50,636 nt of DNA from contig JAQUJY010000001.1 in the NCBI GenBank assembly GCA_028680705.1, positions 44,728-95,363 on the forward strand. Reading direction: 5' to 3'. Positions within the stretch are counted from its first letter, which is position 1, and each line of letters begins with the position of its first letter. This stretch comes from Bacteroidales bacterium. GTDB lineage: Bacteria > Bacteroidota > Bacteroidia > Bacteroidales > Tenuifilaceae. Position numbers and translations under genes: made by a program. A model generated the notes under the pieces. The model saw only the letters and a program-made list of their open reading frames with translations, did no database searches and was not told where the DNA came from. Below, in pieces: positions 33,134 through 43,195 of this stretch.

Positions 33134-33771
33134 GAAAATAAAAAACCTCTTCTTCCTCTTTTTATTGAGACTTACAATACCTAAAACCGCAAAATTAAAC
33201 AATGTATTTTCAGCATCCCTCCTAGGAGTAAAACCCACACAACTATACTCATCAATGGTAATCTAGTTGTTCTCTTTTAGATGGTTTATCAACATTCCCT
33301 ATTTATCAGAGAACTCAATGCCTACTGGCTTCTTGAATCTTATGGCATTCCAGACCTGAACCTGAACCTGAACCTGAACCTTAACCTTAACCTTAACCTT
33401 AACCTTAACCTTAAGTGGGGAAACAACTAAGTTCTCATCCTTAACCCTAAAAAAATCCTTGTACTTGCTTATCAGGCGCCTTATAAAGATGCTTTGCGTC
33501 TGGCTTAACATAAGCCTCAAGCACAACCTTTCCATTTATTTCCCATCGAGTAACCTGAAATTTAACTTCGGGCTTGAAGTACATTGGGGCTGCTCCTTCG
33601 AGCATATAGTATTCCTTGTCGGAGTTAATACCCGATACATTGCCATTATCCTTAACTCCAATCAGAAGTGTTCCCCCTTTGGTATTGGTAATGACGGCCA
33701 ATGAGCAAGTTATCTTTTTCAAATCGGGAATGGAGTGCTTAAAATCGAGTTTTTGATGTTCCCCCTGACGG
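33134..33771 (-). pseudogene. Decayed AlbA_2 domain gene (paralog of 35756-36385)
   Basis: Translating the minus strand gives a colinear match to the intact AlbA_2 protein at 35756-36385, from RQGEHQKLDFKHS (33771) through TNTKGGTLLIGVKDNGNVSG and WEINGKVVLEAYVKPDAKHLYKAPDK to VLGIVSL...RFFIF near 33134. Lesions: the first nine residues including the start are missing; a frameshift lies near a 7-A run at 33449-33455, since removing one base rejoins the frames; and there are in-frame TAG codons at 33299-33301 and 33263-33265. Spacing between KPV and the VTVDE/ITIDE region is identical in both copies. A hexanucleotide array sits inside. Not expected to make a functional protein. Confidence 0.85.
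33355..33414 (-). repeat. Hexanucleotide tandem repeat, 10 units, inside the AlbA_2 pseudogene
   Basis: Plus strand: four CCTGAA units (33355-33378) followed by six CCTTAA units (33379-33414). On the coding strand they read as six Lys-Val and four Gln-Val dipeptides, inserted where the intact paralog has only PLQVKIW. The telomere-like look is coincidental. Confidence 0.95.
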
Positions 33772-40202: not shown

Positions 40203-40270
40203 TCATTGTTATTTTGATGATAAACCGTAAAAAACGCCAATGGTTCAATATTCTTTTCGTCAAAAAAATC

Positions 40271-40316
40271 ATTTCGTGCTTTTGCGAAATGAAAACATTT
40301 CGTAATATTGCGAAAT
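40271..40316 (+). promoter_or_regulatory. arsR promoter with two overlapping ArsR operators
   Basis: Two 20-base dyads ATTTCG-N8-CGAAAT at 40271-40290 and 40297-40316, 26 bases centre to centre. A promoter fits inside: TTTG (40281-40284), an 18-base spacer and TAATATTG (40303-40310, one mismatch to TAnnTTTG). The -33 lies in the first dyad and the -7 in the second, so a bound repressor would block transcription of arsR and could also affect the divergent reductase gene. Confidence 0.75.
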
Positions 40317-40332: not shown

Positions 40333-40626
40333 ATGACAAAAAAGAAGTACACAGAAACGCAGGTAAAACTGGCGCGGTATGCAAAAGCGCTAAGTCACCC
40401 TGTAAGAATTCAAATCCTTGAAATTCTCTCAAACCAAAGTTGTTGCTACAGCGGCGACATTGCCGATGATTTGCCCATAGCACGCAGCACCCTTTCGCAA
40501 CATCTAAATGAACTAAAGGAGGCAGAGCTAATTCAGGGCGAATTTAATCCTCCTAAAATAAAGTACTGCCTTAAAAAGGAGAACTGGGAAGAGGTCAAGC
40601 AGATGATGGAGGAGTTTTTTGGGTGA
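40333..40626 (+). CDS. ArsR family transcriptional repressor
   Basis: 97-residue winged-helix protein. AKALSHPVRIQILEIL, then the recognition helix SGDIADDLPIARSTLSQHLNELKEAELI and a wing with PPKIKYCL. Cysteines C37, C38 (NQSCCYSGD) and C79 could sense As(III) or another thiophilic ligand, though the common CxC pair of ArsR is absent. The tandem operators lie immediately upstream. The presumed target operon (42947-46254) starts 2.3 kb downstream, beyond the repeat array. Inducer unproven. Confidence 0.88.
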   Translation: MTKKKYTETQVKLARYAKALSHPVRIQILEILSNQSCCYSGDIADDLPIARSTLSQHLNELKEAELIQGEFNPPKIKYCLKKENWEEVKQMMEEFFG

Positions 40627-40639
40627 TGAATGTAGGAAA

Positions 40640-41416
40640 AAAAGAAATGATGAACGCTGAATATCGAAGTAATGGAAAAACGAGAGGACAATGCATAAAA
40701 GGCAACGCCCAATCCAAACCAAACTTCATCATTCGAAATTCAATGTTTAATATTCGATATTTAAAAGAAATGAAGAACACTGAATAATGAACGCCGAATA
40801 TCGAAGTAATGGGAGAACGAGAGGACAATGCAAAAAAGGCAACGCCCAATCCAAACCAAACTTCATCATTCGAAATTCAGGGTTCAATATTCGATATTCT
40901 AAAGAAATGATGAACGCTGAATAATGAACACCAAATATCGAAGTAGGGGGAGAACGAGAGGACAATGCAAAAAAGGCAACGCCCAATCCAAACCAAACTT
41001 CATCATTCGAAATTCAATGTTTAATATTCGATATTTAAAAGAAATGAAGAACACTGAATAATGAACGCCGAATATCGAAGTAATGGGAGAACGAGAGGAC
41101 AATGCAAAAAAGGCAACGCCCAATCCAAACCAAACTTCATCATTCGAAATTCAGGGTTCAATATTCGATATTCTAAAGAAATGATGAACGCTGAATAATG
41201 AACACCAAATATCGAAGTAATGGGAAAACGAGAGGACAATGCAAAAAAGGCAACGCCCAATCCAAACCAAACTTCATCATTCGAAATTCTGTGTTCAGTA
41301 TTCGATATTCTAAAGAAATGATGAACGCTGAATAATGAACGCCGAATATCGAAGTAATGGAAAAACGAGAGGACAATGCAAAAAAGGCAACGCCCAATCC
41401 AAACCAAACTTCATCA
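40640..41416. repeat. 137-bp tandem repeat array, first block (6 units)
   Basis: The conserved core GGCAACGCCC recurs at 40701, 40838, 40975, 41112, 41249 and 41386, exactly 137 bases apart. A full unit is a 52-base A/G-rich spacer with the core, six TTCNNNN heptads (the first TTCATCA), GAAATGAT, and five GAANNNN heptads. Exact inverted pairs are TTCATCATT with AATGATGAA and TTCGATATTC with GAATATCGAA. Unit bodies are nearly identical; differences concentrate in the N4 positions. The sixth unit is interrupted after CTTCATCA by the S23 gene module. No spacers of CRISPR type. Confidence 0.95.
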
Positions 41417-41450
41417 AAAGGAATAATGAATTTAAATAAATTGTTTTATC

Positions 41451-41825
41451 ATGGCTGTACGAAAATTTGATTTAGAAGAAAGGCTGATAAATTTTGCGGT
41501 TAGAATTATAGAACTATCAGAATCTTTGAAGCCTACCAAAGCAAGCAATTACTTATCTGGTCAGATATTACGGAGCGGAATTGCACCTGCATTGCAATAT
41601 GGTGAAGCCCAAAGTAGTGAATCGAGAAAAGATTTTGTTCACAAAATGAAAGTTGCATTAAAGGAACTTCGTGAAACGCTGGTTTGCCTAAAGGTCATTC
41701 ATCGTTCAAATTCATATAACTCTGAACAACAGATTTTAGATGCCATTAACGAAAGCAATGAATTAGTATCAATTTTTGTAAAAAGTATTGATACTGCACA
41801 AAGGAATATGATTACAGAAAAATAG
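41451..41825 (+). CDS. Four helix bundle protein (S23/IVP type)
   Basis: 124 residues, all helical: KFDLEERLINFAVRIIELSESL, SNYLSGQILRSGIAPALQYGEAQ, KDFVHKMKVALKELRETLVCLKVI and a fourth helix LDAINESNELVSIFVKSI. This is the family of proteins encoded in 23S rRNA intervening sequences, related in fold to the Avd protein of diversity-generating retroelements; its function is unknown. The gene is embedded in register inside the 137-bp repeat array: the upstream unit stops after CTTCATCA (41416) and the downstream one resumes at GAAATGATGAAC (41832). No rRNA sequence surrounds it. Confidence 0.88.
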   Translation: MAVRKFDLEERLINFAVRIIELSESLKPTKASNYLSGQILRSGIAPALQYGEAQSSESRKDFVHKMKVALKELRETLVCLKVIHRSNSYNSEQQILDAINESNELVSIFVKSIDTAQRNMITEK

Positions 41826-41831
41826 ATGAAG

Positions 41832-42915
41832 GAAATGATGAACACGGAATAATGAACACCGAATATCGAAGTAATGAGAGAATGGGTGGTCAATGCAAAA
41901 ATGATAACGCCCAATCCAAACCAAACTTCATCATTCGAAATTCAGGGTTCAATATTCGATATTCTAAAGAAATGATGAACGCTGAATAATGAATAATGAA
42001 TATCGAAGTAATGGGAGAACGAAAGGACAATGCATAAAAGGCAACGCCCAATCCAAACCAAACTTCATCATTCGAAATTCAGGGTTCAATATTCGATATT
42101 CTAAAGAAATGATGAACGCTGAATAATGAACGCCGAATATCAAAGTAATGGAAAAACGAGAGGACAATGCAAAAAAGGCAACGCCCAATCCAAACCAAAC
42201 TTCATCATTCGAAATTCTGTGTTCAATATTCAATATTTTAAAGAAATGATGAACGCTGAATAATGAACGCCGAATATCGAAGTAATGGGAGAACAGAGGA
42301 CAATGCAAAATGATAACGCCCAATCCAAACCAAACTTCATCATTCGAAATTCTGTGTTCAATATTCAATATTTTAAAGAAATGATGAACGCTGAATAATG
42401 AACGCCGAATATCGAAGTAATAGAAAAACGAGAGGACAATGCATAAAAGGCAACGCCCAATCCAAACCAAACTTCATCATTCGAAATTCAGGGTTCAATA
42501 TTCGATATTTAAAGAAATGATGAACACTGAATAACGAATATCGAAGTAGGGGGAGAACGAGAGGACAATGCAAAAAAGGCAACGCCCAATCCAAATCAAA
42601 CTTCATCATTCAAAATTCAGGGTTCAATATTCGATATTCTAAAGAAATGATGAACGCTGAATAATGAACGCCGAATATCGAAGTAATAGAAAAACGAGAG
42701 GACAATGCATAAAAGGCAACGCCCAATCCAAACCAAACTTCATCATTCGAAATTCAGGGTTCAGTATTCGATATTCTAAAGAAATGATGAACACTGAATA
42801 ATGAATAACGAATATCGAAGTAGGGGGAGAACGAGAGGACAATGCATAAAAGGCAACGCCCAATCCAAACCAAACTTCATCATTCGAAATTCTGTGTTCA
42901 GTATTCGTTATTCAA
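41832..42915. repeat. 137-bp tandem repeat array, second block (8 units)
   Basis: The AACGCCC core recurs at 41906, 42043, 42180, 42315, 42452, 42581, 42718 and 42854: spacings 137, 137, 135, 137, 129, 137, 136. The small departures are short deletions in the spacer or in the GAA heptads. The last unit ends in the 30 bases before the thioredoxin-like gene at 42947. Several units carry TGTG or AATA variants within the TTC heptads. Confidence 0.93.
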
Positions 42916-42946: not shown

Positions 42947-43195
42947 ATGGAAATTATCGTTCTTGGGACTGGCTGCCCAAAGTGTAAAACACTTGAAGAG
43001 GCCACACGCAAAGCAGTTGAGGAACTTGGTGTTAGCGCCAATGTTACAAAAGAGGAAGATATTGTAAAAATTATGAACTATGGGGTAATGCGCACGCCAG
43101 CATTGGTGATTGATGGCAAGGTAGTTATCTCCGGTAGAGTGCCAAATGTTGGTGAGCTGAAAGAGGTTATTAGCAAAAATAGCAAGCCAAAATAA
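42947..43195 (+). CDS. Small thioredoxin/glutaredoxin-like protein
   Basis: 82 residues, TM0996/MTH895-type. The active site C10-PK-C13 (GTGCPKC) sits after the first strand EIIVLG. RTPALVIDGKVVISGRVP contains the cis-Pro loop. Cytosolic. The ATG at 42947 is the natural start; a longer frame beginning at 42842 merely reads into the repeat. First gene of the arsenic-type operon; homologues occur next to ArsF/ArsG and permease genes. It may pass electrons to the CcdA-like ArsG protein (inference). Confidence 0.9.
   Translation: MEIIVLGTGCPKCKTLEEATRKAVEELGVSANVTKEEDIVKIMNYGVMRTPALVIDGKVVISGRVPNVGELKEVISKNSKPK

Follow-up and report, generated by a model that had tools for sequence, protein, structure and literature searches.

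Between an arsR gene and a thioredoxin gene of a Bacteroidales bacterium (Tenuifilaceae) lies an array of 137-bp units in which TTC and GAA triplets recur every seven bases, and it raises the question of what such an array descends from and what might read its period. The window, meaning the whole stretch of DNA analysed, is 50,636 nucleotides long, and the features that matter here are these.

40333..40626, + strand: ArsR-family regulator, 5′ neighbour of the array (PF01022, NF033788)
40646..41416, + strand: left array block of 137-bp units (GAA arm, core, TTC arm), from Tandem Repeats Finder and anchors
41451..41825, + strand: IVP / S23 gene for a four-helix-bundle protein of 124 amino acids (PF05635, E 3.9e-12; TIGR02436, E 7.9e-20)
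41832..42913, + strand: right array block of 137-bp units, from Tandem Repeats Finder and anchors
42064..42101, + strand: sample TTC arm of six TTCNNNN heptads
42106..42145, + strand: sample GAA arm, its GAANNNN heptads beginning past one 8-base step
42146..42200, + strand: sample core linking a GAA arm to the next TTC arm (TAATGG...CAATGCAAAAAAGGCAACGCCCAATCCAAACCAAAC)
42948..43195, + strand: ArsE/MTH895-family thioredoxin, first gene 3′ of the array (PF13192, TIGR00412)

At period 137, Tandem Repeats Finder reports 5.6 copies at 40646-41416 and 8.0 copies at 41832-42913, and the 14 array anchors are spaced by 137 bp ten times, by 135 and 129 bp once each and by 517 bp once. This bears out a first-pass annotation that had described fourteen units, mostly 137 bp apart, each with six TTCNNNN heptads and, after one 8-base step, five of GAANNNN. 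That annotation overlooked the IVP gene that divides the array into two blocks; the 517-bp gap is a unit with this gene in place of most of its TTC heptads. Each unit runs from a GAA arm through a core of about 55 bp to a TTC arm, and some units have lost a triplet (TTT for TTC, for example). As tandem 7-bp units within a spacer the array is a heptameric simple sequence repeat, with degenerate N4. The claim that the N4 varies while the triplets stay holds, diversity being lower in the triplets both among the window units only (0.035 versus 0.097 for N4, p=0.03) and with the units of two sister genomes included (0.082 versus 0.187, p=0.005). Some of the sister-genome units differ in length by 14 bp, or two heptads.

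Exact inverted pairs do occur in the order A, B, A′, B′, as had been seen. The companion statement that the N4 parts do not complement each other fails: TTC-TAAA-GAA forms an imperfect stem whose pairing keeps the heptad register (z -2.3 as DNA, -3.0 as RNA), and with arms that are inverted repeats pairing imperfectly in this register there is no need to dismiss a plain hairpin or to invoke a pseudoknot. The GAA-core-TTC fold is weaker and variable, one unit having a z of -2.1 (DNA) and another of -0.6 (DNA) and -1.9 (RNA).

Rfam families gave zero matches across the whole window, and there is no rRNA in it. No further copy of the 137-bp unit was found elsewhere in the window's genome, nor was the unit found on plasmids; present at a single locus, it differs from MITE or REP/BIME elements with their many dispersed gene-less copies per genome. 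Sigma-70-like promoters occur in the region at chance level only, in a scan that does not cover Bacteroidota promoters. Of the region around the array, eight proteins were scanned: ArsR, IVP, thioredoxin, DsbD, ArsP, an RlmN-like protein, an oxidoreductase and one unmatched. Other repeats in the window are a 26-bp direct repeat, AAAACATTTCGTAATATTGCGAAATG, at 40266-40316 just 5′ of arsR, a possible operator; ten copies of the hexamer ACCTTA at 33354-33414; and a five-copy 24-bp tandem repeat at the window edge (1-127).

We know of no function or ligand for IVP/S23 proteins, which are annotated as "23S rRNA intervening sequence protein" or "four helix bundle protein". The AlphaFold model of the window's IVP is a confident four-helix bundle (pLDDT 93) whose fold matches are, best first, 2rld (the structure of BT_0352), 2gsc and Avd 4dwl, so that by both families (PF05635, TIGR02436) and by fold (2rld/2gsc) the locus encodes the S23p/IVP type of protein found in 23S rRNA intervening sequences (IVS). 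There are five chains each in 2gsc and 2rld, and S23p is a homopentamer (PMC4990558). IVP genes are present in 114 of 148 sampled Bacteroidota genomes, and the window's genome has six. Two of its further IVP genes (L001 and L003) are also flanked by short-period repeats, and the gene-plus-repeat rule was therefore tested more widely.

The survey set comprises 211 IVP loci with both flanks, from Bacteroidota, Nitrospirota, Desulfobacterota, Chloroflexota, cyanobacterial plasmids and ANME-1 archaea; the wider loci come from a GTDB genome scan with four-protein alignment (Nitrospirota, Desulfobacterota, Cloacimonadota, Chloroflexota, ANME-1 and others). An arm was called period 7 when above the 99th percentile of shuffled arms, distant windows having proved contaminated as a null by other heptad arrays. 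On this basis 71% of the 211 loci have period-7 arms within about 100 bp either side of the gene, and 82% have period 7, 8 or 9, while at the same threshold the figures for windows within IVP genes are 0.3% and 0.8%. For 137 Bacteroidota IVP genes the identity excess at lags 7, 14 and 21 is about 0.09, 0.07 and 0.04 within 100 bp up- or downstream, and near zero both within the genes and 100-900 bp off. The signal is equally strong in the GTDB-scan loci of other phyla, where lag 7 reaches 0.116 upstream and 0.167 downstream. By eye, most arms of nine plasmid loci (seven cyanobacterial, one Bacteroidota, one Chloroflexota) also have heptad-type repeats, in one instance AATTCGT repeats 5′ of the IVP gene and ACGAATT repeats 3′. 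At three of the plasmid loci, cyanobacterial and Chloroflexota (L280, L281, L282), the IVP genes adjoin defence or modification genes: cas1, a helicase with an N-6 DNA methylase, DISARM drmD and BREX pglX.

The downstream arm is an inverted repeat of the upstream arm. Compared with the reverse complement of the downstream arm, upstream arms score 16.75 at their own locus and 9.87 when loci are swapped, the maximum in 10,000 permutations being 10.8. On the IVP tree, period 7 changes to or from 8 or 9 only 14 times, where shuffling gives a mean of 25.9 and a minimum of 21, a result equally expected if gene and arms share their descent. Per genome, IVP count and heptad count correlate with a rho of 0.77 (60 genomes), or 0.66 with one genome per family. 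A match of five heptads per arm to the IVP pentamer was suggested by the raw mode of 5 and was rejected because the estimator overshoots by about one on simulated arms, the calibrated mode being about 4.

Polymerase slippage could make heptads in intergenic DNA, with IVP genes merely occupying such spacers. In many bacterial genomes no class of simple repeat is commoner than the heptamers, and slippage has been put forward as their source (PMC4679880, PMC4692102); sister units here do differ by 14 bp, and there are many heptad arrays with no IVP gene. Such a plain microsatellite is nevertheless improbable and already disfavoured, since period 7 is restricted to IVP flanks, other intergenic windows having it in only 6.6% of cases (10.4% for periods 7, 8 or 9), and since the two arms are inverted copies, empty sites lack heptads and the period follows the IVP tree. 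The first-pass annotation had proposed that a protein reads the 7-base period, and had named disappearance of that period among relatives as one of the results that would count against its account; the period persists in sister genomes as well as in unrelated families, so this result did not come about. As for the proposed reader, the idea is partly supported at the level of sequence, in that heptad arms accompany IVP genes across phyla and their period follows the IVP tree, which would make IVP the candidate.

Where both neighbours are close, they run in the IVP direction at 139 of 168 loci and both against it at 6, so the element is placed in operon spacers, sense to transcription. The upstream arm is G-rich and the downstream arm C-rich in 57%, with the opposite pattern in 3%, and the downstream arm often stands directly 5′ of the next ATG. 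The window's IVP gene has a truncated TTC arm on one side and a GAA arm on the other, a polarity opposite to that of most loci.

These regularities are also what would be expected of an RNA switch, in which IVP would bind the upstream heptads of its own transcript while the downstream arm pairs with the upstream one, tuning the operon or marking an RNase III cleavage, and the arms would be conserved as RNA. TRAP, which binds spaced triplets, is the model for this. Sense orientation, arm polarity and the placing of the downstream arm before an ATG all speak for it, as do the removal of the Coxiella 23S IVS by RNase III (PMC4990558) and the structural likeness of IVP to Avd, whose chains in DGR ribonucleoprotein structures are among the matches. 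Against it, arm mismatches are G-U-compatible in 184 cases and of A-C types in 229, no excess, and the sense-strand duplex is no more stable than the antisense one. With no G-U support for selection on an RNA stem, we lean to a DNA-level role for the heptad arms, and the switch is unlikely, if by no means far-fetched.

Orthologous spacers show the element in several states. Between what we take to be serA and a DUF1015 gene, some relatives are empty, with a gap of 9-24 bp and no heptads; others are filled, with a 424-443 bp insert of IVP gene and arms; and others again have decayed IVPs or arms with no gene. Among these orthologous elements no locus-by-locus co-variation of the arms was seen (own 16.7, swapped 16.1). 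Two loci at this spacer (L260, L270) hold a different gene-less palindrome, of the CTTTGCGTCT...AGACGCAAAG type, where relatives hold IVP elements. No recent transposition of IVP genes was caught, most of the eight pairs listed being orthologous with common wider flanks. Dispersed copies near locus L157 in genome G025 turned out to be largely a different palindromic family: about 135 bp long (CGTCATTGCGAGGAG...CTCGCAATGACG; L157 1395-1530 and other contigs), not heptad-built, in more than 20 near-identical dispersed copies, and adjoining an IVP element.

At the arsR-thioredoxin spacer, relatives have nothing or a single heptad hairpin without a gene, of the GTAAAAT or the GAA type, one genome (G002) has about three and a half units and another (G001) a longer array (L287), which is interrupted by a run of N. 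Unit number thus varies at this site, and the window array, with 14 units and an IVP gene where two of them meet, is the extreme of the series; with relatives that have none, one hairpin or several units, it is therefore to be seen as an amplified gene-less element. Its position between arsR and the thioredoxin/ArsP genes could suggest clustered binding sites for an ArsR-type regulator or another host factor of an arsenic-type operon. With several relatives having the same gene pair and no array or one hairpin, and with the same architecture in unrelated operons, this is very improbable.

What the array probably descends from is an operon-dwelling relative of the IVS, with IVP as the probable reader of the heptad arms. 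The ancestor would have been an IVP gene that lacks an obvious promoter itself, transcribed by read-through from the host operon and enclosed by inverted arms of tandem 7-bp units. The arms would be the ends of the element and would be recognised by an IVP ring, relatives of solved structure being pentamers; the element would spread, and slippage would shift the number and sequence of its heptads. At the arsR-thioredoxin spacer the ancestor was probably one element with no gene, made up of a GAA arm, a core and a TTC arm, that would have multiplied in tandem to 14 units in the window's genome, where one junction between units carries an IVP gene. To be counted against this descent are the opposite polarity in the window, the lack of recent transposition and of arm co-variation, and arrays with no IVP gene nearby, which are the majority: an IVP gene lies within about 1.5 kb of 5 of 30 GAA arrays and 2 of 20 TAACTGA arrays.

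Heptameric repeats and the 23S rRNA IVS are both known, and what seems to be new is the association of IVP with heptads, a layout that recurs in Bacteroidota, cyanobacteria, Nitrospirota and archaea. Joint occurrence gives the S23 proteins and the unexplained heptamers each a candidate partner, and two questions, the role of the S23 protein and the origin of IVS and heptamers, reduce to one of binding. IVP has its fold in common with the DGR accessory protein Avd (4DWL, 8UB7), and homology between PF05635 and Avd has been noted (PMC10053308); a DGR requires, besides Avd, a reverse transcriptase and template/variable repeats.

The heptamers reported are TAACTGA (PMC4679880), GGGAATC and GGGGA(C/T)T (PMC4692102) and GGGACCG (PMC2700814), from Beggiatoaceae, Xanthomonas/Nostoc and Geobacter; such repeats have more than once been described as abundant, and these papers leave them unexplained. 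Like the arms here they are 7-mers repeated in tandem within spacers, and those of Xanthomonas often form convergent inverted pairs; two loci have a TAACTGA array near an IVP gene, at distances of 73 and 96 bp. Unlike here, an IVP partner goes unmentioned in the searched passages of those reports, where the ideas are G-quadruplex, slippage or a regulator; no link between heptamer repeats and IVP was found among open-licence PMC papers.

The first-pass annotation knew of no described element of this structure; the type is near the 23S rRNA IVS of Coxiella and Leptospira. In Coxiella the IVS is 428-444 nt long, has an S23p ORF and a 28-bp terminal inverted repeat and is excised by RNase III (PMC4990558). 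Shared with it are the protein family, encoded in the loop that a terminal inverted repeat closes, a total size of 424-443 bp for the serA-DUF1015 insert, and a situation within a transcribed unit; an ORF with complementary ends, about 430 nt in all, is found across loci, with the TTC arm beside the window's gene truncated. Unlike the IVS, the IVP elements lie in operon spacers of protein genes, the window's between arsR and a thioredoxin gene, and not in a 23S rRNA helix, their arms are tandem 7-mers of many families, and they have gene-less copies and tandem amplification. More tentatively, and with the balance slightly against it, IVP/S23 proteins may serve specifically to read, and perhaps to move, inverted heptad repeats, and a large share of the unexplained heptamers of bacterial and some archaeal genomes may be the ends, still active or defunct, of selfish elements that live in operons and form a single ancient family, the 23S rRNA IVS being a special case of it.
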